In this document: piece after piece, positions 28,786 through 51,608 of the stretch
Layout of the letters: the number at the start of each line of letters is the position of its first letter
Numbering within the stretch: the stretch's first letter is position 1
Assembly (NCBI GenBank): GCA_002869535.1
Contig: PKUK01000008.1
Location: forward strand, 602,351 to 666,350
Reading direction: 5' to 3'
DNA: 64,000 nt
From: Arcobacter sp.
Lineage (GTDB): Bacteria; Campylobacterota; Campylobacteria; Campylobacterales; Arcobacteraceae
The notes under the pieces: model-generated
The model's database searches: none
What the model saw: the letters and a program-made list of their open reading frames with translations, nothing else
What the model was told of the DNA's origin: nothing
Translations under genes and position numbers: made by a program

Positions 28786-28805
28786 AAAGAGCAAAAGCTC
28801 TTTTT
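28784..28805. terminator. Bidirectional hairpin terminator
   Basis: AAAAAGAGC, loop AAAA, GCTCTTTTT: 9-bp perfect arms between two convergent genes, with T-runs available on both strands. Confidence 0.85.
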
Positions 28806-29868
28806 ATGAAAGAAAATCTAATGAAGAAATAATTCCTGCAGTTCCATCTTCTCGTAAAAATATTGAGTTAGATTTTAGATGTGCTAAACTCTCATTTGCA
28901 GATTTATTATAAGCCATATCAGCTCCAACATCACCCAAATAAAGTGCACCTATTCCAGTTTGTCCAAGGGCTATTAAATTCTCAGTGCCACTTTCATCTT
29001 TTGTCCAAATTCTCAAATCTTTAAATATTGAATCATTTTCATCAATCCAATTATTTCCATCACTATCATACTCACTCAACTCACAAAAGCCATCATTAGA
29101 TGAAGGTCCAAAAAGTTCACTTCCATCATCTATTGTTCCATTTTGATTTTTATCTAATACTAAAAAACCATTTCCATCTTTTAAAAGTGGTAGTTCTTTT
29201 TCAGTTCCATCACTATTGATATCAAAATTAAAACACATAGTGTCACTTAGACTATCAAAAGCACTTGCTTCACAATCATATTGAATAACAAGTGGGTCTA
29301 AAAAATGTGTCTCTTCAAAAACTAGTTTTTCACTATGTTTTTCATAAAATTCTCTTGTGTAAGATAAGTCTAAATCGATATTAATATCTTTATTATCTTT
29401 AGTTTTTATAGTTGCTTGTGTATTAAACTCAATTGAATCACTTCTACTATATTCATAACTTCTCTCAATTGATATTTTATTTTTTATAAGCATCTTTTGG
29501 GCATCAAAAGCTGGTTCGTTTTCTTGGCATTTAATATCTTTTAAACTAGCCATTTTATCATTTTCTTTTCCGCCAAAAAAGCTTGCAAGTATCATCTCTA
29601 AAATCATTCTTTCAATCTCTTCGTAGGGACTCAAAAAATTACCACTCTTAGAAACATCATTTGCACTTTCTACTTCATTGTCATTTGTTGCCATATTTTT
29701 ATCTGTATGTTCTTTTTTATATCCATCAGATTCTAATTTTTGTGTATCTTCGTTTACATTCATAAAACCTAATACTTCATGGCTAAAATCTACTTGAGAT
29801 TGTGTAATCATCTCAAAAGAGCTTTTCGTTTGTGAACTAATTTTCACATTTGACGATTCTATTATCAT
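28804..29868 (-). CDS. Hypothetical protein with EF-hand-like Asp/Asn-rich repeats
   Basis: The 354-residue protein has no signal peptide or membrane helix. The N-terminal third is polar and low in conservation. The C-terminal half holds calcium-loop-like segments: FDINSDGTEKEL, LDKNQNGTIDDGSE and YDSDGNNWIDENDS. These resemble the dockerin/EF-hand motifs of secreted Ca-binding proteins, and VLDKNQNGTIDDGSELFGP is common in large uncharacterised proteins of Campylobacterota and other Proteobacteria. Export, if it occurs, would need a C-terminal type I signal; function unknown. Its gene is convergent to the ABC ATPase and separated by a terminator. Confidence 0.7.
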   Translation of the reverse strand: MIIESSNVKISSQTKSSFEMITQSQVDFSHEVLGFMNVNEDTQKLESDGYKKEHTDKNMATNDNEVESANDVSKSGNFLSPYEEIERMILEMILASFFGGKENDKMASLKDIKCQENEPAFDAQKMLIKNKISIERSYEYSRSDSIEFNTQATIKTKDNKDINIDLDLSYTREFYEKHSEKLVFEETHFLDPLVIQYDCEASAFDSLSDTMCFNFDINSDGTEKELPLLKDGNGFLVLDKNQNGTIDDGSELFGPSSNDGFCELSEYDSDGNNWIDENDSIFKDLRIWTKDESGTENLIALGQTGIGALYLGDVGADMAYNKSANESLAHLKSNSIFLREDGTAGIISSLDFLS

Positions 29869-30015: not shown

Positions 30016-30978
30016 TTATCCACCAGTTTCATAAAAAGCCCGTGCTGAAACCTCAGGGTTTTCAGACCATTTGTTCTTTTCTGGCTTATTTAATAGTACA
30101 TCATTTAAAATTGCAGCTGCTTTGTCTATGTCATTATTTTGAATAGCCTCTTTTATACTTTGAGAATCTTCAAAATATAAACAAGGGATTAAAACTCCAC
30201 TTGCAGTTAGTCTTATACGATTGCATGTAGCACAAAAATCATCTTTATGAGGTTCAATTATCCCAAATACATAACCATCTTCCATAATATAATCCTGTGA
30301 TGGAGAGCTACCACTTCTCTCAAGTTTTTTAAAACTATATTTTGCTTTTAAGATATTTTGTATTTGAATTGAGTTATACCCCTTTGCACCATCTTTTGCA
30401 TGGTCATTTTCCATGAATTCGATAAATCTTATGGGATAACCTTTTGATTTACAAAACTCTACTAAATCACAAAGCTCGTTATCATTTATCCCTTGCATTG
30501 GTACGCAGTTTATTTTTATTTTAAGTCCTGCACTATGGGCTGCTTCAATACCTTTTAATACTGTAGGTAATACATCTTTTTGTGCAATTTTATGTGCAAC
30601 GTCTGGTATGAGGCTATCTAAAGATACATTTATTCTTTTAAGCCCTGCATCTGCTAGTTTTTGTGCTGATTTTGGTAGTAGATATCCATTTGTAGTAAGG
30701 GCCAAATCAATATCATCTTTATATTTAGATATCATCTCTATAAAGTTATCCAATCCTTCTCTTAAAAGCGGTTCTCCACCTGTAATCCTTACTTTTTTCA
30801 CACCTCTATCAATACATACTTTGATAAATTTGAATAAATATTCATAAGAGAGAAGTTCTTCTTTAGGTACCCAAGAAAATGGTTTTTCTGGCATACAATA
30901 TTGACATCTAAAGTTGCATCTTTCAGTTACAGAGACTCTTAAATAATCAACTACTCTACCATGTCCATCTTTTAACAT
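30016..30978 (-). CDS. moaA: GTP 3',8-cyclase MoaA (molybdenum cofactor synthesis)
   Basis: The 320-residue radical SAM enzyme converts GTP to 3',8-cyclo-GTP, the first step of molybdopterin synthesis. The N-terminal cluster motif is [11 protein letters not shown] (C21, C25, C28), and the C-terminal cluster motif is [20 protein letters not shown]. It ends in the double glycine required for activity. I chose the ATG at 30978 (MLKDGHG) with AAGGTGA upstream over the in-frame ATG at 30999. Molybdopterin is required by NapA in this window. The gene stands alone on the minus strand. Confidence 0.93.
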
Positions 30979-31073
30979 AAAATCACCTTCAAGTGTCAAA
31001 AATTTGCCACTTAATATTAAATTGCGTTAGCTTATTATAAAATTCCTTAAACAAAAAGGATACAGGGAGTTTA

Positions 31074-31739
31074 GTGGATAAATTAAAGATTATTACTCAA
31101 TTGGACTTTTTTAATGAATTAACGCCAAGCCAGATAGAAGAGATATTTACAATATCTAATCTAATTACCTATCCTAAAGATTCAATTCTTTATTATGAAG
31201 ATGAAATAAAAGAAAATATTCTTTTTTTAGTTGAAGGACTTATAAAAATTTATAAGATCGATAAATTTGACAATGAAATATTTTTATATCATATATATAA
31301 AAACTCAATGATTTCTGAATTAACTTCAATAAATAAAAATAGTATCTATTGTTTTTCAAACGCAGAGTTTGTGGAAGACTCAATAGTCTTATCTATAAAT
31401 TTTGATAAATTTAAAGATATGTTTTTATCTAAAAATATCTTATCATATAAATTAATTGAGACCTTACTAGAAAAAACCCATCAACTACAGTGTATTGTAA
31501 ATCGTGAGTTAGTATTTGATGCCACCGCAAAAGTAGCCTTTATGATTTATAATGACATTCAAATGTTTAATAAACTCAAAAGACAAGAGGTATCATTTAT
31601 GTTGCACATTCAACCAGAGACACTTTCTAGAGTTTTGAAAAGATTGACAAGAAATGGTGCTATTGATGTTGATAAAGGTGAAGTAATCATCTTAAATAAA
31701 AATCAATTGGAATCAACCTTTAAAGGAGTTGGCATTTGA
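31074..31739 (+). CDS. Crp/Fnr-family regulator, candidate denitrification regulator
   Basis: The 221-residue protein has an N-terminal cyclic-nucleotide-type beta-roll and a C-terminal HTH with QPETLSRVLKRL. This matches the Fnr recognition helix (E-x-x-S-R), which reads TTGAT half-sites. The N-terminal cysteines of Fnr's 4Fe-4S cluster are absent, so it is more like NnrR/Dnr/NssR than Fnr. The start is GTG at 31074 with a GGGAG ribosome site. It overlaps the NarX-like gene by 4 nt and precedes nosZ. That suggests it senses NO, nitrite or nitrate status, which is inference. Confidence 0.83.
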   Translation: MDKLKIITQLDFFNELTPSQIEEIFTISNLITYPKDSILYYEDEIKENILFLVEGLIKIYKIDKFDNEIFLYHIYKNSMISELTSINKNSIYCFSNAEFVEDSIVLSINFDKFKDMFLSKNILSYKLIETLLEKTHQLQCIVNRELVFDATAKVAFMIYNDIQMFNKLKRQEVSFMLHIQPETLSRVLKRLTRNGAIDVDKGEVIILNKNQLESTFKGVGI

Positions 31740-32731
31740 AAACAAATAAAATAAGTACAAAAATAAAAACATTAGGTGCCTTATTCATAATATTAATGGC
31801 AGTCATTATTTTTACGACTGTATATTTAAATAATAAAAATAAAAAAGATGCCTTGGTAATTAATATAGTTGGTAAAGAGAGAATGCTAACACAAAAAATC
31901 TCTAAAAATATTTTTTACCTTTATTACAGTGAAAAAACAAATTTTTCAGAACTAAATAGTGCTAGTGAAGAGTTTATTCAAGGATTAGACTCTTTAAAAA
32001 ATGGTAATAAATTAACAGGGATAGAACCTGTGCCAAATGATAAAATTGGACAACAACTCTATAAAGTAGAAATTTTATGGAAAGACTTTTTTGACAATGT
32101 AACTAGCTTTAAAAAACTGCAAATAAAAAATGATGAAGAGAGCGAAAAGTTATTAAAAACAGTAGTTGAAACAATCTATAATACAAATAACAACTTATTA
32201 AATGAAGTTGATGAGTTAGTGACTTTATATACTTTACATGCAGAAGATAAAACTGTTTTAATTAAAAACTTCCAATATTTAGCTGCAGTACTTATTCTTT
32301 TACTTATATTTTATGCTTTTACACAACTTAAAGGTATTGAAGAAAATGCTAACAAATTTTTAGAATTTTAAAAAAAAATAGCCAATGAAAAGAATGAACA
32401 ATTAGAAACTCTATCAATAGATGTAAATGAAAAAGAGATTTTAGAAGTAACGGATACTTTTAATTGCTTTATTAATAAAATCAATTCGGCTATGAATGAA
32501 TCTGCTGTTGCAATGGAACACTCTAAAAATGCAAGTTCAAAACTAGAAGAAATAACTAATGAATTCGATAATGTAATCAATGATCTAAAAAACCGAACAG
32601 ATATCGGTAATCAATTAAACAAAAGTGAGGATATGGTTATTGAGTCAACAGAAGATTTAATTAACTCAACTAAAAAACTTCAAGACCTAAAAGAAGAACT
32701 AGACAAAATACTTCATACTTGTAAACTTTAA
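31736..32731 (+). pseudogene. NarX/PilJ-type nitrate-sensor-like membrane protein with in-frame TAA
   Basis: The frame has 331 codons starting at TTG (31736, AAAGGAG 7 nt upstream). It has a first helix at about residues 11-29. A PilJ/NarX-type periplasmic domain contains NIVGKERMLTQKISKNIFYL, similar to the nitrate-binding P-box of NarX and NarQ (G-x-x-R-M-L-x-Q). A second helix (YLAAVLILLLIFYAF) follows, then a coiled-coil cytoplasmic tail. No kinase or chemoreceptor hairpin is present. TAA at 32369-32371, after FLEF, is followed in frame by KKIANEKNEQL and 120 more codons. It cuts the protein just past the second helix. It is coupled to the Crp/Fnr gene, so the pair may form a nitrate-sensing unit. 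Confidence 0.7.
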
Positions 32732-32811: not shown

Positions 32812-32852
32812 TTGATATATATCAATAAATTAAAATTCCTAATAGTTATAAT
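32812..32852 (+). promoter_or_regulatory. nosZ promoter with Fnr/NnrR-type box
   Basis: TTGATATATATCAA (32812-32825) is a perfect Fnr-type site. TATAAT at 32847-32852 is a perfect -10 box. The predicted start near 32859 puts the site centre at about -40.5, the class II activation position. A near-tandem AATGCTATGT repeat lies at 32850 and 32861. The leader to the nosZ ATG would be about 158 nt; no gene is seen in it. Confidence 0.75.
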
Positions 32853-33016: not shown

Positions 33017-35611
33017 ATGAAAAATCTTAATAGAGTCACTTCGCTATTAATAGGAAGTGCTTTAGCTGCAACAGTTTCAATCGCAAATGACAGTACTCTT
33101 CAAAAAGTTATGAAAGATAGGTGATTGAATGAACAAGATGTTATTCGAGCTGCTAAAACTTATAACCCAACAGGAGTAAAAGATGACTATGTCATATTTT
33201 CATCAGGTGGACAATCTGGACAAGTGATTGTCTATGGTGTTCCATCAATGAGAATTCTTAAATATATTGGTGTGTTTACACCAGAGCCTTGGCAAGGGTA
33301 TGGTTATGATAAAGACTCATTAGCTATTCTTAGACAAGGGGATGTAAGAGGAACAGAAATTAACTGGGGCGATACACATCACCCTGCACTTTCTGAAAAA
33401 GATGGTAAATATGATGGTAGATGGTTAGCTATTAATGATAAAGCAAATCCAAGAATTGCTATCATTGATTTAGCTGACTTTGAAACAAAACAAATTGTTC
33501 CAAATCCAGTATTTAAATCAAATCATGGGGGAGCATTCTTTACTCCAAATTCTGAATATATTATAGAAGCATCACAATATGCTGCTCCTTATGATAATAA
33601 CTATCACGCAATTGACGACTACAAAGAGTCTTACAGAGGTGGTGTTACAATGTGGAAATTCGATGATAAAATTGGTCGAATTCTTCCAAAAAATTCATTT
33701 ACTATTGAAATGCCTCCATATCATCAAGATTTAAGTGATGCCGGAAAAGGTGTAAGTTATGGATGGGGATTTACGAACTAATTTAATACAGAAATGTATA
33801 CAGGTGGCATCGAAGTTGGTAATCCACCAAATGAAGCTGGTATGTCAAGAAATGATACGGATTTTCTACATGTATATAACTGGGAAAAACTTGCAGAAAT
33901 TGCAAAAGATCCTAAAAATGTAAAAGTTATTAATGGTCATAATATTATACCTATTGAAGTTGCAGTAAAAAATAATGCACTTTTCTTAATTCCTGAACCA
34001 AAATCACCACATGGTGTTGATGTTTCTCCAGATGGTAAATACTTGATTGTTTGTGGAAAATTAGATACACATGCTTCTGTTTATTCTTTTGAAAAAATTA
34101 AAAAACAAATAGATAATAAAGAGTTTATTGATAAAGACCCATATGGTATTCCTATTTTAGATATGAAAAAATCTTTACATGGACAAGTTGAACTGGGACT
34201 TGGGCCTTTGCATACGCAATACTCACCTGTTGATGGACAAGTGTATACATCATTGTATGTTGACTCACAAGTTGTTAAATGGGATTATAAAAATTTAAAA
34301 ATATTAGATAAAGAAAATGTACACTATAACATTGGACATTTAGCTGGTATGGAAGGTAAAACTTCTGACCCTCAAGGTAAATATATTATTGCATTAAACA
34401 AATTATCTATTGATAGATTTCAAAATGTTGGTCCACTACATCCACAAAACCATCAATTAATTGATATATCTGGTAAGACAATGGATTTATTAGTGGATAT
34501 GCCTTTACCTTTAGGAGAGCCTCACCAAGCAGTTGGAATTAGAGCTTCAAAACTTCACCCACATATTAGATATACGATGGGTACAAATACAAAAACTGGT
34601 AAAGAGCACATTGGTAAAACTTTAGCGGGACAAGAAAGAATAGTAAGAGATGGGAAAAATGTAACAGTATATTCTACATTAGTAAGATCTCATATTAACC
34701 CTGAAAGAATAACAGTTAATAAAGGGGATAAAGTTACCATTCACATGACTAACTTAGAAAGAGCCCAAGATGAAACTCATGGGTTTACAGTTGGTGGATT
34801 TGATCAACATGCCTCACTAGAGCCAGGAGAAACTACAACAATTGAATTTATTGCTGATAGAGAAGGTGTTTTCCCTTACTATTGTACTGAATTCTGTTCA
34901 GCTCTTCATTTAGAAATGATGGGTTATTTAATGGTAAAAGATCCTAACAAAAAATATGTTAGTGCAAATAAAATGAAAATAGAAGCAATGAGTCCAGCTG
35001 AATTAAAAGCTGAATATGACAAAGTTGTTGCGGTAAATGCAGCAACAGATTCAGTTATTCAAAGTGTTGTTGCCTTCTTAAAAGCTAACGGCTTTGATAA
35101 ACATAAAGTTGTTGCTGACTTAGTAACAGATGCATTTGACCAATATGGGCAAATTCCTGATGAAAAGAAAAAAGCTAATGCTGCCTTTAAAGCTGGTGAT
35201 GTAGAAAAAGCGATTTTACATGAAGGTATGATTTGGCAATTGATGGTTAAAACAGCTGATGTTGGAATTAGAGCTAAAGATGCATTAGTGCGAAAAATAG
35301 CTACAGAACAATCTGCTGCTGCTGCTAGAGGTGAAAAAGCATTTGCAGAAGGTGGATGTAATGGTTGTCACGTTATTGGAAAAGTATCTTCAGGTCCTGA
35401 TTTAACGGGTGTTTTATCTAGACATGAAAATGCAGAAAAATGGGTAAGTGAATTTATTTTAGATCCAGAAGCTAAATACAAAGAACCTTACATAAAAGCA
35501 ATGATTGATTACTTTAATTTAAAAATGCCTAATCAAGAAATGAGTGAGAAAGAGACTGAAGATATTATTGAATATCTAAAATGGGTAGATGATAACGCTA
35601 ATCTATTCTAA
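33017..35611 (+). pseudogene. nosZ: Nitrous-oxide reductase NosZ (clade II, cytochrome c fused) with two in-frame stops
   Basis: The frame has 864 codons and encodes the periplasmic enzyme that reduces N2O to N2. It has a Sec-type signal peptide (ending near TVSIA-ND). CuZ histidine motifs are GDTHHP, SNHGG, PPYHQD, SPHGVD, GPLHTQY and GHLAGMEG. The CuA domain carries DETHGF and YYCTEFCSALHLEM. A C-terminal cytochrome c domain carries GGCNGCHVIG. TGA at 33122-33124 stands at the Gly of MKDR(G)LNEQD; TAA at 33779-33781 stands at the Ser of GFTN(S)FNTEM. Both are single-base changes in an otherwise conserved frame. Restarts after the first stop would lack the signal peptide. The ATG has GGGAGAAG upstream. 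Confidence 0.93.
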
Positions 35612-35616
35612 TCTTG

Positions 35617-35648
35617 ATAAAACAGAAGATTCATCTCTTCTGTTTTAT
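35617..35648 (+). terminator. Strong hairpin between nosZ and nosB
   Basis: ATAAAACAGAAGA and TCTTCTGTTTTAT are perfect 13-bp arms around TTCATC, six bases after the nosZ stop. It has only a short T-run within the arm. It may be a partial terminator or an mRNA 3'-end stabiliser that raises nosZ output over the downstream nos genes. Confidence 0.75.
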
Positions 35649-35755
35649 TGATAGCTGTCAATACAAATAATAACTATGATAGCTATAATTAATGTAGATG
35701 ATTTATTTAAACATTTTAGAGTGTTTTAGTAAGTTATCTAATAAAGGATTTATCT

Positions 35756-36532
35756 ATGCACACAAGTTTTAAAAAATCAAAAGTATTTGCTTTTTTAGCA
35801 CTATTTATCTTGACCATAAGTTTTACAATTCCTGTAGTATTTTTTCATGGTGCACTTAATAATATTCATAATAACAAAGAAGTATCAGCAATTTCAACAA
35901 CAATATGGAACTTATATTCACTAAATAAATATGTAAGTACAAATACACCAAAAGAGGCTTCAAATGATTTGAATAAAATGATTTAATCAGCTTCTGAAAT
36001 AGGTGCAGCTTCACTGCCAATTTGGTCAGTATCACTTGAAGCACCAAATTATCCAAAAGAAGCATTTCCTATGGGGATTCCCGTGTATTTTCATTTTGAT
36101 GGATTTACTGGAGAAGTACATGAAATGAATACAATTAATCACTATATTGGAATGGATCCAATGTGGAGAGGAGGACAATTTGAAAGAGAAATTGCTCCTT
36201 ATGCATTATTATCATTATGTTTAATTATGATTCTTTTTATTGCTTATAATAAAAAAATATTTTCATATTTTATGTTTATTCCTGTATCTCTACCATTCTT
36301 ATTTATAGCAGATTATGCTTATTGGCTATATTGGTTTGGACATAATTTACATGATTGGGGAGCTTTCAATATAAAACCTTTTATGCCAACAGTTTTTGGA
36401 GATGGTAAAGTTGCTCAATTTATCACGCACTCATATCCTGGTATTGGCTTTTATTTACTTGTAGCAATAAGTTTGTTAAGTCTTTTAGCATTATTATCAA
36501 GAAATAAAGCTATAAAAGAAAGTAGTTTATAA
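35756..36532 (+). pseudogene. nosB: NosB membrane protein with in-frame TAA
   Basis: The frame has 258 codons with about four helices: one N-terminal and three C-terminal. NosB occurs directly after nosZ in Wolinella-type nos clusters and is needed for N2O respiration in ways not yet defined. TAA at 35984-35986 follows NDLNKMI. The frame continues SASEIGAASLPIWSVSLEAP without a break to 36532, so the stop looks like one base change (GAA to TAA fits). A fragment from the ATG at 36071 would start inside the conserved periplasmic segment and lack the first helix. nosD starts 7 bp downstream. Confidence 0.82.
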
Positions 36533-36538
36533 GTAACT

Positions 36539-37756
36539 ATGATGAAAAAGTATTTAATGGCTATCCTATCAATATTATCATTTTCAAATGCAACTATCTT
36601 GCAAGATGCAATTAACAATGCGCAAGAGGGGGCTATTTTAAAACTTTCGGATGGTATTTATGAAGGGAATATAATAATTGATAAACCTTTAACTATTTTA
36701 GGTGTTGGAAAAAATGTACTAATAAGTGCAAAAGGAGAAGGTACTGTTATTACTATAAATAGTTCTTTTGTAACACTAAAAAACCTAAAAATTCAGAACT
36801 CTGGGGATAGACATGATAAATTAGATGCTGCAATTGTTATAAAAAAAGCTACTCAATGTGAAATATCAAATGTTGAAATTACAAACTCATTATTTGGGAT
36901 AGATTTACAACAAGTGAGTAATACCTTAATATCTAACAATTATATTCAATCAAAAAATTTAGAATTAGGATTAAGAGGTGATGGAATTAGGCTTTGGTAT
37001 AGTAATGATAACATCATAAAAAATAATCATTTATATAAATCAAGAGATATGGTTGTTTGGTATTCTCATGGAAATACAATAGAAGATAATAAAGGAGAAT
37101 ATGGTAGATATTCTCTTCATTTTATGTATGCGGGAAAAAATATAGTTAAAAATAATCATTATAAATTTAATTCAGTTGGGATATTTTTTATGTATTCAAA
37201 AGACACTATTGCTTCAAACAATATAGTACAAAGTTCTTTAGGTAACACAGGAATGGGCATTGGACTAAAAGAAGTTAGTGGTTTTACTCTTAAAAATAAT
37301 ACATTGCTTTACAATGCAAGAGGTATGTATATAGATAGATCTCCTTTTGATAAAGATAATAGAAATACTATTTCAAATAATAATATTCTTTATAATACAG
37401 AAGCTATGCACTTTCATTCAATATGTGAAGATAATGATATCAATAACAATCAAATAATAGGAAATATAGAAGATGTGGTAAATAATACAAGGGGTGGAAA
37501 AATTTATAATAATAATTGGAATAATAACTACTGGGATAACTACGAAGGATTTGATAAAAATCTAGATAATATTGGTGACAATTCTCACAAAATTTATAAA
37601 TATGCAGATAAATTATGGCTTAACTACCCAGAAGTAAAATACTTTTACGGATCACCTATAATTTCAATGTTGAATTTTCTTGCAAAACTTGCACCCTTTA
37701 CACAGCCGCTATTTTTAGTAGAAGATAAACAACCTATAATGTTTAGTGGAGAATAA
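36539..37756 (+). CDS. nosD: NosD periplasmic copper-site maturation protein
   Basis: The 405-residue protein has a signal peptide (MMKKYLMAILSILSFSNA). It folds as a right-handed beta-helix of parallel NosD/carbohydrate-binding repeats, recognisable as recurrent N-N-x-I/L steps such as SNDNIIKNNHLYKSRDMVVWYS. With NosF and NosY it forms the ABC machine that assembles the CuZ site of NosZ. Two adjacent ATGs (36539, 36542) are possible starts. It overlaps nothing and ends one base before nosG. Confidence 0.93.
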   Translation: MMKKYLMAILSILSFSNATILQDAINNAQEGAILKLSDGIYEGNIIIDKPLTILGVGKNVLISAKGEGTVITINSSFVTLKNLKIQNSGDRHDKLDAAIVIKKATQCEISNVEITNSLFGIDLQQVSNTLISNNYIQSKNLELGLRGDGIRLWYSNDNIIKNNHLYKSRDMVVWYSHGNTIEDNKGEYGRYSLHFMYAGKNIVKNNHYKFNSVGIFFMYSKDTIASNNIVQSSLGNTGMGIGLKEVSGFTLKNNTLLYNARGMYIDRSPFDKDNRNTISNNNILYNTEAMHFHSICEDNDINNNQIIGNIEDVVNNTRGGKIYNNNWNNNYWDNYEGFDKNLDNIGDNSHKIYKYADKLWLNYPEVKYFYGSPIISMLNFLAKLAPFTQPLFLVEDKQPIMFSGE

Positions 37757-37757
37757 A

Positions 37758-38477
37758 ATGGAACAAAAAAGAAGAGAATTTATACAGTTTTCAACACTAG
37801 GAATATTAGGATTAGTATTAGCAGGTGGTGTTGCAGGTGTACCTTATTTAAAAGCAAAAACATTAAGAGTTAGACCACCTGGAGCTCTAGATGAAGATGA
37901 TTTTTTAGCCCTATGTATTAAATGTGGTCAATGCTTACAAGTTTGCCCATATCATAGTATTGAACTTGATTCATTATTTACAGGGCATGGTATAGGAACA
38001 CCATACATAGATACCTTAAATCGAGCTTGTTATTTATGTACAGCTCTTCCTTGTGTTTTAGCTTGTCCCTCAGGAGCATTAGACCATAATGTTTCTAAAC
38101 CTGAAGATTTAAAACCAATGGGAATAGGAGTATTAGAAAACCCTAATAAATGCATTGCCATTTCAAAAGAAATGGTTGAAAAAAAACATATTCAAAAAAT
38201 ATATTCACATCCTCATTCAAATGAACAAGAGAATGAAGTGTTAGAAAAACTTGAAACTTTTGTTGGGAAAGGCTGCACAATTTGTGCAGATATGTGTCCT
38301 TATCCCAATGCCATCGAAGCAATTGAAATGGTTAGTGATAGTTCTGGTGGATTTCGACCACAGTTTAATGAAAAGTGTATAGGGTGTGGAGTTTGTGAAG
38401 AATTGTGTCCTACAAATGCAATTACTATTAAAGCTCGTTTAACATACGATGATTATTATATAAAAGGTAAAAAATAA
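37758..38477 (+). CDS. nosG: NosG ferredoxin-type electron-transfer protein
   Basis: The 239-residue protein has a twin-arginine-like N-terminus (KRREFIQFSTLGILGLVLAGG), so it is probably exported folded. Four CxxCxxCxxxC clusters follow: CIKCGQCLQVCP, CYLCTALPCVLAC, CTICADMCPYP and CIGCGVCEELCP. It resembles NapG and is thought to pass electrons from menaquinol via NosH towards NosZ. ATG 37758 follows GGAG in the end of nosD; the GTG at 37746 is an unlikely start. It overlaps nosC1 by one base (TAATG). Confidence 0.92.
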   Translation: MEQKRREFIQFSTLGILGLVLAGGVAGVPYLKAKTLRVRPPGALDEDDFLALCIKCGQCLQVCPYHSIELDSLFTGHGIGTPYIDTLNRACYLCTALPCVLACPSGALDHNVSKPEDLKPMGIGVLENPNKCIAISKEMVEKKHIQKIYSHPHSNEQENEVLEKLETFVGKGCTICADMCPYPNAIEAIEMVSDSSGGFRPQFNEKCIGCGVCEELCPTNAITIKARLTYDDYYIKGKK

Positions 38478-39022
38478 TGAAATTAAAAATTATAAGTTTA
38501 ACAATAAGTTCTTTGCTTTTTTTAACAGCATGTTCTGATAAAAAAGAAGAAGAAAGAGAAGTAACACCTTCTGTTGCTGGAAAAATTGAAGTTTCACAAA
38601 AGAATGATATTTATGAAAAGAAAGTGGAAGAAAAAGAGGCTCAAAAAGATAGATCTTATTACTACTCTTACAATAAAGAAAAAGTCGAAGAGAAAGAAAA
38701 AACAGCAATAGATGCAAATATAAGAGTACGATCTCCCTATGAAAGAGTTGAAATTTAAATGTTAGTTGGTAAATTAAGTAAAGAGTTTATTGTGAAATGT
38801 TCTGCATGTCATAATGATTATGCAAATGGAATTATTGGTCCTTCTCTTTTAAATAAAGATGAAAATTTCATTTATGAGTCAATAAATTCTTTTAAAAAAG
38901 ATGCTAATAAAAATGTTCTAATGAGCCAATTAGTAAAACAGATGCCAGAAGAAGAGATAAAAAAATTAGCAAAAGAAATTTCAAATTTCAATATGCAAAT
39001 ACAAGAATTAAAGGCTAAATAA
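38477..39022 (+). pseudogene. nosC1: NosC1 monohaem cytochrome c lipoprotein with in-frame TAA
   Basis: The frame has 181 codons. It begins with a lipoprotein signal (SLLFLTACSDKKEE), then a charged spacer, then a cytochrome c domain with CSACHNDYANGIIGPSL. TAA at 38756-38758 follows YERVEI, and the next codons, MLVGKLSKEFIVKC, are in the same frame with no spacing. The distal half has haem but no export signal, and the proximal half has an export signal but no haem. They are therefore one gene split by a stop. NosC1 and NosC2 are expected to carry electrons from NosGH to NosZ in the periplasm. It overlaps nosC2 by one base. Confidence 0.82.
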
Positions 39023-39474
39023 TGAAAAATATAATTGTAGGACTTTCAACCCTAATAATTGTTGGATTAATGATATATGTAGCTTTAATTGGAAAAGCAT
39101 TTCAAGGTGGAGAGGCTGGTAAAATCATTGAAGATATGAAAACATTTAATAAAGTAAAAATAAGCAAAAAAGATTCATCTAAAGAAAATGATGAACTTAA
39201 TTCTTTAAAAGATAGAGCTGGTAATTCATCAGAATTTAAAGTATCACAAAACTTCAAAAGTAAATGTGCTTCATGTCATGGGGTTAATGGAAAAGGAATT
39301 TTAGGACCTGATCTTTTTGGTAAATCATCAGAAGAAATTTATACTTCTTTAATTGAATATAAAAGTGGAAGAAAAGAGAATCCAATCATGAAAGGATTAC
39401 TAATTAAGATTGAAGAAGCAGAATTAAAAGAGTTAGCTGAAGAAATTGGTTCTTTTAAAGATAAGATAAAATAA
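39022..39474 (+). CDS. nosC2: NosC2 monohaem cytochrome c
   Basis: The 150-residue protein has an uncleaved or poorly cleaved N-terminal helix (IIVGLSTLIIVGLMIYVALIG). The haem-binding CASCHGVNGKGILGPDLFG (axial His in CASCH) lies near residues 87-105, in a C-terminal cytochrome c domain similar to that of NosC1. It is the second cytochrome of the Wolinella-type electron path to NosZ. It overlaps nosC1 by one base and ends 10 bp before nosH. Confidence 0.9.
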   Translation: MKNIIVGLSTLIIVGLMIYVALIGKAFQGGEAGKIIEDMKTFNKVKISKKDSSKENDELNSLKDRAGNSSEFKVSQNFKSKCASCHGVNGKGILGPDLFGKSSEEIYTSLIEYKSGRKENPIMKGLLIKIEEAELKELAEEIGSFKDKIK

Positions 39475-39484
39475 AGGTTCTGTT

Positions 39485-40390
39485 ATGGATAAATTTAACA
39501 ATAGAACAACTATCGAAAACAGTTCTTTTTTATCAACATTTATAGATAAAACAAGGGATGGGAAAAGTAAATTAAGTATAAGAGCCAAAAGATATATAAG
39601 TGTTATTTCTATTCATCTTTTTTTCTTTTTATCTTTTTTTATTGACATCCAAGTTTTAGAAGGAACTCTAAATGCTTCAAGATTTTTAGGGTTTCATTTA
39701 ATCGATATTTTTACTACCATTGAAGTATTCGTTGCTACTTACCATATACCAATAAATATGATTATTGGTACGATTACTATTGTTATTATCTATTTAATAA
39801 TAGGCGGTAGATCCTATTGTTCGTGGGTATGTCCTTATGGAATAATTAGTGAAATTGCTGAAAAACTAAATAATAATTTAGTAAAAAGAAAAATAATTAA
39901 ACAGAGAGTCTTCAATAAAAACATTAAATACATCTTTTGGATAATGTTTCTAACAATGGCTTTTACAAGTGGCTATATCGTTTTTGAAACAATAAATGTT
40001 GTTGGAATATTAAGTAGAGCAATCGTTTATGGTTGGTCCGTGGCACTTATTTGGGTTTTATTTGTATTAGCCATTGAAATATTTTATTCAAGAAGAGCTT
40101 GGTGTAAATATATTTGTCCAATTGGTACAACATATGGAGCTATTGGCTGGGTTAGTGCAACAAAAATCGAATGGAATGATAACTGTGACCACTGTATGGT
40201 ATGCCATGATGTTTGCTTTGAAAACCATGTATTAGAATTAACAAAAGCAAAATATGATAAAGAACGAAAAGAAAAAGGTATCAAGCAACAATATGTTACT
40301 AGTGGTGATTGTACATTATGTGGAAGATGTATTGATGTATGTCACTCAGATGCTTTAAAAATTGATTTTAGGTTGAAAAGTATATTATGA
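39485..40390 (+). CDS. nosH: NosH membrane-bound polyferredoxin
   Basis: The 301-residue NapH-like protein has four helices. Two CxxxCP motifs face the cytosol (SYCSWVCPYG and AWCKYICPIGTTYG), and a C-terminal ferredoxin domain carries CDHCMVCHDVC and CTLCGRCIDVC. It probably oxidises menaquinol and passes electrons to periplasmic NosG. It lies 10 bp after nosC2 and overlaps nosF by 4 nt. Confidence 0.92.
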   Translation: MDKFNNRTTIENSSFLSTFIDKTRDGKSKLSIRAKRYISVISIHLFFFLSFFIDIQVLEGTLNASRFLGFHLIDIFTTIEVFVATYHIPINMIIGTITIVIIYLIIGGRSYCSWVCPYGIISEIAEKLNNNLVKRKIIKQRVFNKNIKYIFWIMFLTMAFTSGYIVFETINVVGILSRAIVYGWSVALIWVLFVLAIEIFYSRRAWCKYICPIGTTYGAIGWVSATKIEWNDNCDHCMVCHDVCFENHVLELTKAKYDKERKEKGIKQQYVTSGDCTLCGRCIDVCHSDALKIDFRLKSIL

Positions 40391-41025
40391 TAAAAATAAA
40401 AAATTTAACAAAAAAATTTGGAAATACCGTATCCTTAGATAGTGTAAGTTTAGAGTTTAATATAAATGACCACATAGCACTGATGGGTCCAAATGGAGCA
40501 GGTAAAACTACACTAATTAGACTAATATTAGGTTATTACCATGCAAATAGTGGGGATGTTTCAATCAATGATTTAAGTCCAATAGAAAACAGAGTTGATA
40601 TACTAAAAAAAGTTAGTTTTGTTCCTCAACTTCCACCTCCAATTAAATTAAGTATAAATGAACTATTACACTATATTTGTACTAGCACAAATATAAATAA
40701 AGAATTAATTTATCACTATTGTAAAGAGATGGAATTAGATATAACTCAAATATTGAATAAGTCATTTTTCAAACTATCAGGTGGAATGAAACAAAAACTA
40801 CTGATTTCTGTATCTTTGGCTAAAAATTCAGAAATTATGATTTATGATGAACCAACTGCTAATTTAGATCCAAAAGCAAGAGATAATTTTTATAGACTAT
40901 TAAAACAAAATGATAAAGAGAAGATTATGCTTTTTGTTACGCATAGATTAGAAGAAGTAAAAAACATAACAAATAGACAAATATATTTTGATTTAGGAAA
41001 GGTAATAAGTGATGAGAAATTTTAA
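40387..41025 (+). CDS. nosF: NosF ABC ATPase for NosZ copper-site assembly
   Basis: The 212-residue ATPase has Walker A GPNGAGKTTLI, signature LSGGMKQKL, Walker B IMIYDEPTANLD and H-loop VTHR. It energises the NosDFY complex. It overlaps nosH upstream by 4 nt and nosL downstream by 14 nt, so the cluster is translationally coupled. It is shorter than Pseudomonas NosF (about 300), as is usual in Campylobacterota. Confidence 0.92.
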   Translation: MIKIKNLTKKFGNTVSLDSVSLEFNINDHIALMGPNGAGKTTLIRLILGYYHANSGDVSINDLSPIENRVDILKKVSFVPQLPPPIKLSINELLHYICTSTNINKELIYHYCKEMELDITQILNKSFFKLSGGMKQKLLISVSLAKNSEIMIYDEPTANLDPKARDNFYRLLKQNDKEKIMLFVTHRLEEVKNITNRQIYFDLGKVISDEKF

Positions 41026-41494
41026 ATATGGCGTATTTTTATTTTTTGCTATTTTCTTTATTTCATGTAGTGATTCAACATCCTCAGAAAATGATATAAA
41101 AAAAATACATTGGGATAGGGATATGTGTGATAGATGTAGAATGGTTATAAGTGAAAAAAAATTTGCTGTGCAAGTTATAAATCCACATACAAATAAAACG
41201 TTTCTTTTTGATGATTTAGGCTGTGCTATATCATGGTTTGAAGAAGAGAATCAACCTTGGATAAAAGAAGCGAAAATTTGGATTAATGATGCACACAATG
41301 GATCATTTATTGATGCAAAAGAAGCTATTTACACAAAAGAAAACATAACTCCTATGGGTTATGGTTTTAGTGCATATACACAAAAGACAAAACCAAAAAA
41401 TGAAAGGTACTTTTCATTTGAAGAGAGTGTTGAACTAATCAATTTACGAAATCATGAATATCAACAAGAAAAAATTGGGACTAAAAATGAATAA
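41012..41494 (+). CDS. nosL: NosL copper chaperone lipoprotein
   Basis: The 160-residue protein has a lipoprotein signal (FLFFAIFFISCSDST). The NosL copper-binding motif is in WDRDMCDRCRMVISEKKFAVQ, with the C-x-x-C-x-M pattern; MGYGFSAY is the second conserved region. It delivers Cu(I) to NosD/apo-NosZ in the periplasm. I chose the ATG at 41012; the GTG at 41009 is an alternative. The start lies inside the nosF end and the gene overlaps nosY by 8 nt. Confidence 0.9.
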   Translation: MRNFKYGVFLFFAIFFISCSDSTSSENDIKKIHWDRDMCDRCRMVISEKKFAVQVINPHTNKTFLFDDLGCAISWFEEENQPWIKEAKIWINDAHNGSFIDAKEAIYTKENITPMGYGFSAYTQKTKPKNERYFSFEESVELINLRNHEYQQEKIGTKNE

Positions 41495-42314
41495 TCTTTT
41501 ATTGGTAGCATTCCTAGACTTAAAAGAGTCAATAAGAGCTAAATGGTTTTTAGTTTATACTCTTGTATTTGGTGGATTAATTGCTATTTTTTTTATTACA
41601 GGAGTTACACAATCTCAAGTAATGGGATTCAATGGTTTGAGCAGATTACTTTTAATGTATATTCAAATTACAATTGTAATTTTACCAATATTTATTTTAA
41701 TTACAACAGTTAGATCTATTTCCTCAGATAGGGATAGCAATATCCTAGAGTATATGCTCTCTTTTCCTATTTCATTAAAACAATACTATTGGGGTAAAGT
41801 TATTGGAAGATTTATTACAGTATTTTCACCTGTATTTTTAGCAATGATTTTAGCAATAATCATTGGATTAGTTAAAGGGGCATCAATTCCTTGGGCTATA
41901 TTATTTTTATATTCTGGCCTAATATTTTCGTTATGTTTATCATTTTTAGGAATTGCTTTTTTTATATCTACTATTGTTAAATCCTCTGAAGTATCTTTAG
42001 GAATTGCTTTTTTTGTTTGGATTTTTCTTTTAGCATTTATTGATATTGCTTTAATATCTTTAATGTTACAAAATAGAATGGACGAAAGTCTTATTATTGG
42101 TATATCATTGCTTAATCCATTAGAAGTATTTAGGGTAGCTGCAATTTCACTTTTTGACCCAGAGCTTACCGTAATGGGTCCTGTTGCATACACTATTTTA
42201 GATAATGTTAATCAAAAAGTTTTTGTAATTTTATCAATTATTTATCCAGTGATTTTAGGTTTTGCTTTTGCATTTATAGGATTAATCACTTTTAGAAAGA
42301 ATGATTTAGTATAG
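41487..42314 (+). CDS. nosY: NosY ABC permease for NosZ maturation
   Basis: The 275-residue protein has six helices of the ABC-2 type, beginning NNLLLVAFLDLKESIRAKWF. It contains SSDRDSNILEYMLSFPISLKQYYWGK, a conserved coupling region of NosY. It forms the membrane part of NosDFY. The ATG at 41487 has TTGGGA upstream; a further ATG at 41454 is less likely because it lies deep in nosL. The gene is followed 9 bp later by a second NosL-type gene. Confidence 0.92.
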   Translation: MNNLLLVAFLDLKESIRAKWFLVYTLVFGGLIAIFFITGVTQSQVMGFNGLSRLLLMYIQITIVILPIFILITTVRSISSDRDSNILEYMLSFPISLKQYYWGKVIGRFITVFSPVFLAMILAIIIGLVKGASIPWAILFLYSGLIFSLCLSFLGIAFFISTIVKSSEVSLGIAFFVWIFLLAFIDIALISLMLQNRMDESLIIGISLLNPLEVFRVAAISLFDPELTVMGPVAYTILDNVNQKVFVILSIIYPVILGFAFAFIGLITFRKNDLV

Positions 42315-42323
42315 GAGAATATT

Positions 42324-42797
42324 ATGTTAAAAAGAAGTATATTTGGATTGTTAATAATTAGTACATTAGGATTTAGTTCACAAATCATCTATTCAAAAGA
42401 TGATTTAGGAGTTGTAAGAAAAATAAATATTGCAAAAAATCCTACTTGGGTTGCACAAATTACGACAAATAAAGGCAAAAAAGCTCTATTTTGTTCTCCA
42501 AAGTCAATGTTTGAATTTTATCATAGACCTCAACTTTTTGAAGAGTATGAAGCAATGAGTTCTGATGATTTAGATGAAATATTAGTAACAGATTATAATA
42601 GTTTAAAACCTATAAATGGAAGAAATGCTTACTATGTTTATGGCTCTTCAAAAACTTCTCCTTCTGGTGATGACTTAGTCGTCTTCGAAAAAGAAATGGA
42701 TGCGAAAAATTTTGCTTCAAAGTATAATGGAAAAAGAATATTTAGATTTTCTAAAGTCTCATTTGCTTTAATTGAACTTTTAAATGGTGATATATAA
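42324..42797 (+). CDS. Second NosL-family protein
   Basis: The 157-residue protein has a signal peptide (MLKRSIFGLLIISTLGFSSQ) rather than a lipoprotein motif. It carries NosL-family features: NPTWVAQITTNKGKKALFCSPKSMFEFYHRPQ and DYNSLKPINGRNAYYVYGS with SGDDLVVFEKEMDAKNFAS. The C-x-x-C-x-M pattern is absent, and it has a single Cys. It lies 9 bp after nosY and ends the nos operon. Its role in copper delivery or sulphur handling for CuZ is unknown. Confidence 0.78.
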   Translation: MLKRSIFGLLIISTLGFSSQIIYSKDDLGVVRKINIAKNPTWVAQITTNKGKKALFCSPKSMFEFYHRPQLFEEYEAMSSDDLDEILVTDYNSLKPINGRNAYYVYGSSKTSPSGDDLVVFEKEMDAKNFASKYNGKRIFRFSKVSFALIELLNGDI

Positions 42798-42845
42798 ATT
42801 AGATATTAAAAAATTATTGTTCTTTAACATCTATAAGCTACTTAC

Positions 42846-44470: not shown

Positions 44471-44484
44471 TTGATAAATATCAA
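44471..44484 (+). promoter_or_regulatory. Fnr/NnrR-type box before the nor operon
   Basis: TTGATAAATATCAA is a perfect Fnr-type site ending 64 bp before the first nor-cluster ATG. A TACTAA at 44504-44509 could be the -10 box, which would put the site near -40. Confidence 0.72.
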
Positions 44485-44548: not shown

Positions 44549-44878
44549 ATGGAAATAGCACCTTTAATTATAAGACCGGAAATTCCTCTGGAGAATTTCT
44601 TTCCTATATTTTTATCATCCGCAATGGTAATTATACTAGGGCTTGGATACATTGGTATTTATACTATTGTCCGATTAGGCAAACTTCATAAAAGTTTTAT
44701 GCCAGCAGCATATGCTTTTTGGATTGCGCAAACATACTGTTTATACTACCTTGGTGTTTTAATAAAAAGTGAACCTTTTACACAATATGTGTTATTTGGT
44801 GCGATGGTTGGTTTCCTACTAATTCCACACTTCGTATACTTTTTAATGGTTAAAACCCATGAGTCAGTAGAACATTAA
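44549..44878 (+). CDS. Small three-helix membrane protein before norC
   Basis: The 109-residue protein has about three helices (FPIFLSSAMVIILGLGYIGIY, AYAFWIAQTYCLYYLGVLI and YVLFGAMVGFLLIPHFVYFL). It has no domain I recognise. It is the first gene behind the Fnr-type box and lies 13 bp before norC, so it belongs to the nor operon. Its position suggests an assembly or stability factor for the NO reductase. Comparable small membrane genes accompany nor clusters, but no function is known to me. The ATG has TAGGAGAA upstream. Confidence 0.75.
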   Translation: MEIAPLIIRPEIPLENFFPIFLSSAMVIILGLGYIGIYTIVRLGKLHKSFMPAAYAFWIAQTYCLYYLGVLIKSEPFTQYVLFGAMVGFLLIPHFVYFLMVKTHESVEH

Positions 44879-44891
44879 AAAGGAGAAAACG

Positions 44892-45584
44892 GTGGCTAAA
44901 AAAGAAGTCTCTGTATGGGGAAGTAATAGGTTTTGGCAAAGATCAGCAGCTTGGGTTACTGGATTTAGTGCTATGTTACTAATTTGGTTGACATTTGACA
45001 CTGTACCTCAAATAGCTATGGGTACAGACAAAGATATCCAAAATGGAATAACTAAAAGAGTTCCAAGTCCAACTGTTATTAACTACAAAATTAGTTACGA
45101 CATGAGTGAAAAAAGAGGTCATGAAGTGCCAGTTATTGGTGGAAATGATGGAAGTGGTAATAGTATGTTTACTGAAAAAGAGAAGTTTTTTGGTAGAGAT
45201 GATTATTCACAAAAAGAAGCGGCTGATTTACTTCATTTAGGTAAATTAGGTACGCAAGCAAAAAATTGTATGGATTGCCATACATTACTTGGAAATGGTG
45301 CATATTATGCTCCTGATTTAACTAAAGCTTGGTTAGATCCAATGTGGAGTGAAAATGGACCTTATAGAGGAATGACAGGAAAAGCAACTAAAGAAGAAGC
45401 TATGGCAGAATTTTTAATGCATCCTTCACAATATCCTACACATGCTAGAATGATGCCAAACCTTGGTATTACAGAAGATGAAGCAAAAGGGATTGTTGCT
45501 TTCTTAAAACATATGTCTTCAATTGACACAAATGGTTTCCCTAGAAACTTTGGGAAAATGCAAGGAGCTGTAAATGGCAAGTAA
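44892..45584 (+). CDS. norC: NorC cytochrome c subunit of nitric oxide reductase
   Basis: The 230-residue membrane-anchored cytochrome has one N-terminal helix and haem motif CMDCH (C126, C129, H130) in NCMDCHTLLGNGAYYAPDL. The downstream ARMMPNLGITEDEAKGIVAFL is typical, including the axial Met. It delivers electrons to NorB for 2 NO to N2O. It is longer than Pseudomonas NorC (146) because of an insert of about 80 residues before the haem, as in other Campylobacterota. The GTG start at 44892 has AAGGAG. It overlaps norB by 11 nt. Confidence 0.93.
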   Translation: MAKKEVSVWGSNRFWQRSAAWVTGFSAMLLIWLTFDTVPQIAMGTDKDIQNGITKRVPSPTVINYKISYDMSEKRGHEVPVIGGNDGSGNSMFTEKEKFFGRDDYSQKEAADLLHLGKLGTQAKNCMDCHTLLGNGAYYAPDLTKAWLDPMWSENGPYRGMTGKATKEEAMAEFLMHPSQYPTHARMMPNLGITEDEAKGIVAFLKHMSSIDTNGFPRNFGKMQGAVNGK

Positions 45585-46992
45585 TTTAAAATTTGAATCC
45601 CAAAGACTTGGGACTTGGTATTTTACTGTAGCGGCAACACTTTTCGGTGCACAGTTATTATTTGGTTTAATTGCAGCAACTCAATTTGTTGTTCCAGGTT
45701 TTCTTTTTGAAACATTAGATTTTTCAATTGCAAGAATGGTGCATATCAATGCCTTAGTTGTATGGTTATTATATGCAATGATTGGTGCAGTATATTTTAT
45801 TTTACCTGATGAAACAGGGATTGAGACAGTTGGTGTTGGTATTGGGAAAATACTATTTTTTGTTCTAACAGCAGCTGTTGCAGTTGTGGTTTTAGTATAT
45901 ATTTTTATTCAAGTTGGACCTGCAAAAGAATCTACAATTTGGTTAATTACAGAAGGTAGAGAATATATTGAAGCTCCAAGATGGGCAGATATTGGAATTG
46001 TTGTTGTTGTACTTGGTTTTATTGCTAATGTATATTTAACAGCAATAAAAGGTGAACGAACTGGAATTATGACAGTTCTTATGGCAGATTTACTTGCACT
46101 TGCAGGTTTATACCTTGCTGGTATGTTCTTTACAGATAATATCTCTATGGATCAATATTGGTGGTGGTGGGTTATCCACTTATGGGTTGAAGCTACTTGG
46201 GAAGTTTTTGTTGCTTGTTTAGCTGGTTATGGTTTAATTAAAACTATTGGTGCAAATAGACAAATCGTTGAAATGTGGTTATGGATTGAAGTAGCTATGT
46301 TATTTGGTTCTGGTATTTTAGGTATTGGGCATCACTATTTTTGGATTGGTACGCCTGAGTACTGGTGGGAAATTGGAGCATTATTCTCTGCACTTGAACC
46401 TGTTCCATTAATTGGTATGTTTGTACACGTATTATATGACTGGGGAAAAGAATCTGGTCATGCAGCAGCAAATGGTACAAAACACTCTATTTCAAATACA
46501 CCTGCATTTAGTTGGTTTGTAGTAAATACTTTTGGTAACTTTATTGGTGCTGGTATTTGGGGATTTATGCATACGCTACCTCAAATCAATCTATATACAC
46601 ACGGTACACAATGGCCAGCAGCACACGGTCACCTTGCTTTCTATGGGGCATACGCTACGATTTTAATAGGTATGTTTTATATGGGTGTTCAAGGTTCAAA
46701 TGGAATTAAAGAGTTACGCGCAACTTTTGCTTCTAAAATGGCAATTACTTTAATTACATTTGGTGTTGTGGGTATGACTGTTGCCTTAACTGCTTCTGCT
46801 TATGTTCAAACTATGGTAGAAAGAGCACAATGGGGTGCAACGTGGGAAGGTTTCTTCGCTGCACAAGAATCAATGTGGTTCATGCAAGGTATGGGATGGA
46901 GACTGGCAATGGGTGTTGTTACATTTATTGGATTTATTTACTTAGTAAAAGATTTATTAAGTACAGGTTCTAATCCTAAACACATAAGATAA
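45574..46992 (+). CDS. norB: NorB catalytic subunit of nitric oxide reductase
   Basis: The 472-residue haem-copper-oxidase-family membrane protein has 12 helices. Helix II carries MVHINALVVWLLY, and the dinuclear haem b3/FeB site has histidines in HLWVEATWEVF and GHHYFWIGTPEYWWEIG. The helix VAMLFGSGILGIGHHYF and the glutamates that replace CuB-type tuning are as in cNOR. It reduces NO to N2O. It overlaps norC by 11 nt, so the two are co-translated, and is followed by a 50-codon gene. Confidence 0.95.
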   Translation: MASNLKFESQRLGTWYFTVAATLFGAQLLFGLIAATQFVVPGFLFETLDFSIARMVHINALVVWLLYAMIGAVYFILPDETGIETVGVGIGKILFFVLTAAVAVVVLVYIFIQVGPAKESTIWLITEGREYIEAPRWADIGIVVVVLGFIANVYLTAIKGERTGIMTVLMADLLALAGLYLAGMFFTDNISMDQYWWWWVIHLWVEATWEVFVACLAGYGLIKTIGANRQIVEMWLWIEVAMLFGSGILGIGHHYFWIGTPEYWWEIGALFSALEPVPLIGMFVHVLYDWGKESGHAAANGTKHSISNTPAFSWFVVNTFGNFIGAGIWGFMHTLPQINLYTHGTQWPAAHGHLAFYGAYATILIGMFYMGVQGSNGIKELRATFASKMAITLITFGVVGMTVALTASAYVQTMVERAQWGATWEGFFAAQESMWFMQGMGWRLAMGVVTFIGFIYLVKDLLSTGSNPKHIR

Positions 46993-47002
46993 GGAGTACA
47001 CA

Positions 47003-47155
47003 ATGTTTGAAGTATTTACAGATGTAGTTCCAAGTTTTTTTGGAACACTAAATCAAGGACCTATGACTTTAACAATTTTTCTACATACGGTAATAATTTT
47101 ACCTATGTTTTTTCTTTATAGACAAGAAAAAAAGAGATTGGAAAACGAGCAATAA
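47003..47155 (+). CDS. 50-residue membrane protein after norB
   Basis: A short open frame starts at ATG 47003, with AAGGAG 7 nt upstream, and ends at TAA 47153-47155. It encodes one helix (MTLTIFLHTVIILPMFFLY) and a basic tail (RQEKKRLENEQ). It follows norB by 10 bp and precedes a terminator, so it is the last gene of the nor operon. I recognise no family. Size and topology fit a small accessory subunit like CcoQ, but that is analogy only. Confidence 0.68.
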   Translation: MFEVFTDVVPSFFGTLNQGPMTLTIFLHTVIILPMFFLYRQEKKRLENEQ

Positions 47156-47160
47156 AATAG

Positions 47161-47235
47161 AAATCAAATAGGAGACTTTCTCCATTTGATTTAAGAAACT
47201 CGACAAAGCATAATTAATATTTTACTTATGCTTTG
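47161..47235 (+). terminator. Two hairpins between the nor operon and nirS
   Basis: First: AAATCAAATAGGAGA pairs with TCTCCATTTGATTT (47161-47192, one bulged base). Second: CAAAGCATAA (47204-47213) pairs with TTATGCTTTG (47226-47235), a perfect 10-bp repeat. They lie right after the nor operon. Neither has a strong T-run, so partial readthrough into nirS is possible. Confidence 0.65.
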
Positions 47236-47272
47236 CCAATAAATTGTGTAATATAAAGATAAGGAGACTAGT

Positions 47273-48991: not shown

Positions 48992-49000
48992 TTAGGAAGA

Positions 49001-49037
49001 TAAATCTATTCATCTCTTAGGAGGTGAATAGTATTTA
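49001..49037 (+). terminator. Terminator after nirS
   Basis: TAAATCTATTCATCTC pairs with GAGGTGAATAGTATTTA around TTAG, with one bulge and one G-U pair, followed by TTTT. It lies 10 bp after the nirS stop. Confidence 0.7.
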
Positions 49038-49048
49038 TTTTAATACTC

Positions 49049-50029: not shown

Positions 50030-50083
50030 AGTTCTTCCTTATGATTAATTTCACAATTATACATACAAAGTAAAAAACAATAC

Positions 50084-51596: not shown

Positions 51597-51608
51597 AAGG
51601 AAATGTAT

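Follow-up and report, generated by a model that had tools for sequence, protein, structure and literature searches.

A conserved kinase-free sensor and Crp/Fnr gene pair of Campylobacterota as a putative switch for nitrogen-oxide respiration

Introduction

NarX and NarQ of Escherichia coli carry a PilJ/NarX-type periplasmic domain with a G-x-x-R P-box between two transmembrane helices, followed by a HAMP segment and a transmitter (DHp/CA), and are accompanied by a response-regulator gene. Replacement of the P-box arginine in these sensors, lysine included, leads to ligand-insensitive phenotypes, as passages of one report describe (PMC8199190), and the title of a PDB entry records NarQ R50K in the apo state. 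McpN, the nitrate chemoreceptor of Pseudomonas aeruginosa, has a PilJ domain with an N-box; as N-box PilJ domains are also found in transcriptional regulators, according to an excerpt of the McpN paper (PMC6381276), a link between this domain and transcription is no novelty in itself.

In Wolinella succinogenes the regulators NssA, NssB and NssC respond to nitrate, NO and N2O, as stated in excerpts of two papers (PMC6682613, PMC8139620), and a consensus of TTGA-N6-TCAA is given for Nss in an excerpt of a third (PMC11539149). Within the same excerpts more study is asked for on how nitrate, NO and N2O are sensed for the Nss regulators (PMC8139620), and work on the mechanism of N2O sensing is called for (PMC11539149). 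Here we analyse a Crp/Fnr gene of this type and the membrane sensor gene that follows it. We recognised no description of the pair in the portions of the literature that were searched; Kern and Simon 2016, which lies outside that scope, may mention the neighbour gene.

Results

A sensor gene overlaps a Crp/Fnr gene

The window, the whole stretch analysed, comprises 64,000 nt of Arcobacter sp. (Arcobacteraceae; GCA_002869535.1, contig PKUK01000008.1, positions 602,351-666,350, forward strand) from a genome of 2.68 Mb in 12 contigs. A gene for a Crp/Fnr (Nss-type) transcription regulator of 221 aa occupies 31074-31739 (+) with a GTG start, and the features of the Nss type, a cNMP fold and a Crp helix-turn-helix, are both present as Pfam matches above cut-off (PF00027, cNMP_binding, E 2e-8; PF13545, HTH_Crp_2, E 5e-9). 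The first-pass annotation had read the TTG start of a sensor gene as overlapping the stop of this gene, and the two genes do share the bases TTGA at 31736-31739 (+); the same 4-base overlap is seen in 41 of the 121 unique pairs described below. As sequenced, the sensor gene (31736-32371, +) encodes a first transmembrane helix (TM1), a PilJ/NarX-type periplasmic domain and a second helix (TM2) before the TAA at 32369. Its match to PF13675, the PilJ family of NarX/NarQ N termini (E 1e-14), agrees with the annotation of a NarX-like module, and the two membrane helices that had been claimed appear as two maxima of hydropathy, in 19-residue windows that begin at residues 6-16 and 173-184. The P-box-like G-K-E-R-M-L-T-Q is there as well, within I-N-I-V-G-K-E-R-M-L-T-Q (31859-31894, +); the core G-x-x-R-M-L-T-Q is intact, and against the strict N-box, defined in PMC6381276, 10 of 12 positions fit, so that the core is matched and the strict pattern is not.

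The sensor had been said to hold one of the stops of this region, and the TAA at 32369-32371 (+) is indeed in frame, at a position that is a sense codon in 18 of 18 relatives aligning there. Past it the frame reopens and runs to the TAA at 32729, and this stretch (32372-32731, +) corresponds to the HAMP-like segment and conserved tail of the relatives (KSEDMVIESTEDLINSTKKL...; tail profile E 6.7e-25). The claim of a coiled-coil tail stands in part, as a tail is present in frame past the stop, whereas the 211-aa product as sequenced ends soon after TM2. The open frame of the window sensor has 215 codons, while most of the family matches listed have open frames of ~325-350 aa, and no stop lies inside the matched part of any sensor match listed. 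Copies in relatives are intact, with an expected full product of ~330 aa.

The divergent neighbour of the Crp gene is moaA (30016-30999, -; TIGR02666 above cut-off), and on its far side, at 28804-29868, lies a gene for a 354-aa protein of unassigned function with a stretch like DKNQNGTIDDGSELFG, relatives of which are found near the pair in several family loci. Downstream of the sensor follows nosZ, for a Sec-type nitrous-oxide reductase (33017-35611, +), with in-frame stops at 33122 and 33779; its longest piece matches TIGR04246 with E 5e-160 and, as the piece is broken, falls below the full-length cut-off of that family. NosD of the window is named by NCBIfam above cut-off, and nosB, nosC1 and napF were named by position and matching loci. 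Further on, napA (58337-61159, +) is followed by napG, napH and napB (NCBIfam NapA, NapG and NapH above cut-off; Pfam NapB). The region between them, 44549-53424, holds ORFs for a cytochrome cd1 (47273), a NirJ-like radical SAM protein (50478) and a uroporphyrinogen methyltransferase (52678).

Within the nos region (33017-42800) the nosZ piece is closest to genomes of another genus (89%) and less close to the genus mate G033 (83%), and only 4 of 43 nosZ-bearing family genomes have nosZ beside the pair. Because of these two observations the nos cluster may, judging from sequence, have moved into the source genome.

Domain content and fold of the sensor

The first-pass annotation had called the sensor kinase-less, and a Pfam scan detected neither kinase (HATPase_c, HisKA) nor MCP (PF00015) domains in the window pieces or in 24 intact orthologues; 23 of the 24 match PilJ, and they end at ~330 aa. 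No Pfam HAMP match was found in the 24 either, so the HAMP assignment derives from a structure of low confidence, an AF2 model of the Malaciobacter orthologue L185. This model has a mean pLDDT of 75, with ten-residue block means of 84-94 in most of the periplasmic bundle and of 41-71 beyond residue 200, where HAMP and tail lie at low confidence. Aligned with VIA-align, it gives Z 18.2 with PilJ, 18.1 with McpN, 17.4 with a LytS-type domain and 14.4 over 219 residues with the sensor-TM-HAMP part of NarQ; as other four-helix sensor domains, that of LytS being one, rank between these, the fold alone is no proof of a nitrate site. The top Foldseek match of the model was NarQ (E 1.8e-4), and by sequence the sensor profile matched PilJ (1.6e-8) and McpN (1.7e-6) clearly and NarQ weakly (E 0.048). 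The NarX/NarQ order of two transmembrane helices and then HAMP is found by hydropathy and the L185 model, the HAMP of the window sensor lying beyond the stop. From sequence and model, the predicted intact sensor consists of TM1, a four-helix PilJ/NarX-type domain with G-x-x-R, TM2, a HAMP-like segment and a conserved, helical tail in the cytoplasm.

A profile of the last 68 residues alone, run on 200 genomes, listed 52 places in 49 genomes; 49 of the places are in ORFs of 119-494 aa, the 119-aa ORF being the post-stop piece of the source genome; the remaining three matches were weak (ORFs of 683, 509 and 689 aa, E 1.7e-4 to 7.5e-4). Crp adjoins the tail ORF in 6 of 6 extra tail-profile loci examined, and at the locus of one weak match neither a tail (in its ORFs) nor Crp was found. 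We had asked whether the tail might be a general module carried on other sensor domains and rejected this, as these three weak matches were all that the 200 genomes offered outside the sensor group.

The pair is conserved across the phylum

The sensor is present in 87 of 104 family genomes and a Crp homologue (E up to 1e-15) in 94 of 104. Using 98 sensor places and the best 90 Crp places, we find Crp directly upstream of the sensor, on the same strand and with a gap of -1 to 33, in 86 of the 87 sensor-bearing Arcobacteraceae genomes; the exception, G073, has a weak sensor match and no Crp. Across the phylum the sensor (E up to 1e-10) occurs in 130 of 397 genomes, and Crp lies upstream in 20 of 20 sensor-chosen loci from other families and in 19 of 19 further sensor-chosen loci (18 from other families, one from Arcobacteraceae), the twentieth locus being that of G069, to which we return below. 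A scan of named genomes, in which 80 of 447 relatives were kept, gave 72 loci of Campylobacterota type with Crp in all 72, and in none of the eight kept loci outside Campylobacterota (Scalindua, three Nitrospinota/Nitrospinia, two planctomycetes, Krumholzibacteriia and one further genome) did Crp adjoin the PilJ sensor. At L139, L146 and L150 Crp is present and had been masked by a contig end, a fragmentary sensor frame ~430 bases on and the ORF filter. The locus sets overlap in genomes; by sensor sequence, 121 of the pairs are unique.

The coupling of sensor and Crp/Fnr gene that had been noticed in this one genome thus recurs in 86 of 87 family genomes, in 20 of 20 and 19 of 19 chosen loci and in 72 of 72 loci of the named collection, and the survey of other genomes that had been suggested as a check reveals conserved pairing rather than a lack of it. 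The pair is a real, phylum-wide, kinase-free receptor-regulator unit of Campylobacterota.

Three sensor branches and their gene context

We divided the 121 pairs into 54 with a single PilJ domain and the nitrate-binding core (N), 45 with tandem PilJ domains and more than 400 aa (T) and 22 of the single type that lack the core (O, the nosZ branch); since the motif was what told N from O, motif counts within N are true by definition. The O loci were chosen by sensor matches, are mostly second copies in a genome, and nosZ played no part in their choice. The strict N-box, [IVL]-[ND]-x-A-G-x-Q-R-M-L-[ST]-Q, is found in 31 of 54 N, 34 of 45 T and none of 22 O sensors, and the O branch has Lys at the Arg position in 22 of 22 and Asn at the Gly position in 20 of 22. 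Pfam PilJ was found in none of the five O members scanned (L091, L092, L106, L113 and L120), and the kinship of this branch with the sensor group comes from the sensor profile search, not from Pfam. Among the tandem sensors (L095-L105, L126-L168), 41 of 45 have the nitrate-box core in both repeats, and two nitrate sites per chain are a possible reading of these sequences.

One clade of the sensor tree contains all 22 O sensors and no others, and the same holds for their 22 regulators in the Crp tree (support 1.0 in both); the clade with all 45 T pairs includes the same six extra pairs in both trees. For N, a clade of the sensor tree unites 47 of the 54, while the best clade of the Crp tree has 48 N among 70; in that tree the regulators of the single type are not set apart as a clade, a point against the switch proposed below.

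The gene that follows the pair differs between the branches: nosZ comes directly after 21 of 22 O pairs and 1 of 54 N pairs, and napA directly after 19 of 54 N and 21 of 45 T pairs. In 8 of 54 single-type pairs the next gene after the sensor belongs to the ORF group of 44549, and moaA lies within 8 kb of 24 of 54 single-PilJ pairs. Altogether 93 of the 121 unique pairs have a nap, nos, nir-region or moaA gene no farther than 8 kb away, and the other 28 (7 N, 1 O, 20 T) have none of those genes within 8 kb in the stretch examined. Very likely the two genes work as one functional unit in nitrogen-oxide respiration.

Residues and boxes of the regulator

The only cysteines of the window Crp are at 93 and 140 (31350-31352 and 31491-31493); both are invariant in 18 aligned nap-type regulators, 91% of the nosZ branch has Ser at position 140, and a redox or haem role is possible for them. 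Eight positions separate the N from the O regulators, four of them in the conserved segment 140-151, a clustering that is statistically weak; the segment overlaps a stretch (136-148) modelled at pLDDT below 50. We take this as a hint that residues 140-151 could be a docking site.

Boxes of the form TTGA-N6-TCAA number 10 in the window, with 4.3 expected, and as many were reached in 1 of 100 shuffles. Among them are boxes upstream of nosZ (32812-32825, +), of nosB (35648-35661, +), of the ORF at 44549 in the nir region (44471-44484, +) and of napA (58252-58265, +). In the pair loci 19 of 24 nosZ and 31 of 52 napA genes have a box in the 250 bp upstream, compared with 81 of 1287 other ORFs, and boxes are little or no commoner than this background upstream of the pair's own Crp (10 of 118), moaA (2 of 25) and the nir-region ORF group (2 of 9). 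These boxes may also serve further Crp/Fnr paralogues.

Discussion

As a kinase-less sensor lies almost always beside one type of regulator, it may signal to that regulator without a phosphate relay. We propose that the two genes probably encode a transmembrane switch for nitrogen-oxide respiration that consists of two proteins and is phosphorylation-free, with an Nss-type Crp/Fnr factor under the control of HAMP and tail. Periplasmic nitrate would turn or shift the helices of the sensor, HAMP would relay the movement to the tail, and the tail would bind or free Crp/Fnr, possibly at the conserved 140-151 segment, upon which the regulator would switch transcription of nap, nir and nos. Direct contact of tail and Crp is the version that we somewhat favour, and adjacency and co-inheritance would also fit two proteins that serve one process and do not touch.

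In the sequenced strain itself the pair could be a non-working remnant, and we regard the chances of such decay as evenly balanced. Genes of relatives cover 41,850 bases of the window, and within these we found six in-frame stops, each backed by at least five relatives, at 32369 (sensor), 33122 and 33779 (nosZ), 35984 (nosB), 38756 (nosC1) and 63809 (napF); of the 13 positions counted at first we dropped seven, most of them frame ends, which had the backing of one relative each. As the cut falls before HAMP and tail, the pair may not work here and the link from sensor to regulator is probably broken. Against decay, the sensor frame and its tail are still intact past the stop, and the stops could be an effect of sequencing or of a mutator, since 4 of the 73 HATPase_c matches of the source genome also have a stop inside. 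No frameshift was found at the six points, and the transversion class G:C to T:A fits five of them, the sixth being ambiguous; a mutator, relaxed selection and sequencing damage are each a possible explanation. Whichever applies, decay would leave the pair in relatives unaffected and is compatible with a phosphorylation-free switch there.

It is also conceivable, and in our view unlikely, that Crp/Fnr itself senses the signal, for instance NO via haem as in DNR, and that the membrane sensor is a separate, minor or accessory input in a shared operon. DNR is the closest solved relative of the regulator (best PDB match of the Crp profile, E 7e-11, followed by CRP), and the family genome G069 keeps a Crp adjoining nap without a sensor. 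G263, which we take to be Wolinella succinogenes, has three Nss-like Crp genes; a tandem-PilJ sensor adjoins the nap-linked one, which is 42% identical to the window Crp and is probably NssA, and no sensor was found beside the Crp just upstream of nosZ or beside the third, so that two of three lack an adjoining sensor. Such self-sensing is at odds with the matching clades of nosZ-branch sensors and regulators in both trees, which hold even where one genome has two pairs, and with the window Crp itself, which lacks what we take, by CRP numbering, to be the Arg-Ser of the cAMP site and which, with cysteines only at 93 and 140, has no N-terminal Fe-S cysteines. We had also considered that the nosZ branch is the Wolinella regulator upstream of nosZ, an idea weakened by the 24% identity of that G263 regulator to the window Crp and by its lack of a sensor. 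The nosZ of G263 (L211, 8522-12425) is split by an ORF of 396 aa on the opposite strand, perhaps an insertion element.

A separate kinase partner nearby, named beforehand as what would speak against the proposal, was not found: the nearest of the HATPase_c matches lies at 9174-9479 of the window, ~22 kb from the pair, in a HisKA/HATPase ORF (8217-9542) with an OmpR-type regulator of its own adjoining. That the sensor acts via a histidine or chemotaxis kinase encoded elsewhere, in a mixed dimer or array with Crp only a downstream target, could draw on the 73 matches in the genome and on this gene, whose group occurs in the 20-kb stretch examined at 6 of 20 family loci, yet it is very improbable, as kinase and MCP domains are absent from the 24 relatives, the tail profile finds the sensor group and otherwise three weak matches, the near kinase has its own regulator and its group is absent among the named ORFs of the 20 other-family loci. 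From domain scans and neighbourhoods we thus judged a kinase partner or a chemotaxis role unlikely.

Beyond the phosphorylation-free switch, a more far-reaching reading, which we hold only tentatively and think rather unlikely, is that Campylobacterota have a distinct signalling class, a HAMP-tail receptor acting directly on Crp/Fnr with no phosphate transfer, and that its nosZ branch, with Asn in place of the nitrate-binding Gly and a strictly kept Lys in place of the Arg, has come to sense a different nitrogen oxide, possibly N2O; to take N2O for the ligand of that branch is speculative and has at best a small chance of being right. The conserved membrane receptor beside Nss-type regulators is a concrete and testable candidate for nitrate sensing. 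The nosZ branch also provides a natural set of R-to-K changes at the nitrate-binding position, linked to nosZ, whose product breaks down the greenhouse gas N2O. Should direct control be demonstrated, the receptor design would be one that keeps the input of NarX while one tail and one Crp/Fnr factor replace kinase and response regulator.

Compared with the described systems, the sensor is like NarX and NarQ in its layout of a transmembrane helix, a PilJ/NarX periplasmic domain with G-x-x-R, a second helix and HAMP, and differs from them in that it has no transmitter and adjoins a Crp/Fnr gene in place of a response-regulator gene. With McpN it shares a PilJ domain with an N-box, but it lacks the MCP signalling domain and is tied to respiration genes. 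The regulator is like NssA, NssB and NssC in its Crp/Fnr type, its TTGA-N6-TCAA boxes and its nap and nos context; in the excerpts of the literature consulted the Nss proteins are regulators for which no membrane partner is named, whereas the pair described here has a membrane sensor. Control of a Crp-superfamily regulator by the binding of another protein has a precedent in NtcA and PipX, where PipX is soluble and tied to 2-oxoglutarate/PII signalling. Our proposal shares with that system a partner-controlled regulator of the Crp superfamily, and differs in that the proposed partner is a membrane receptor.
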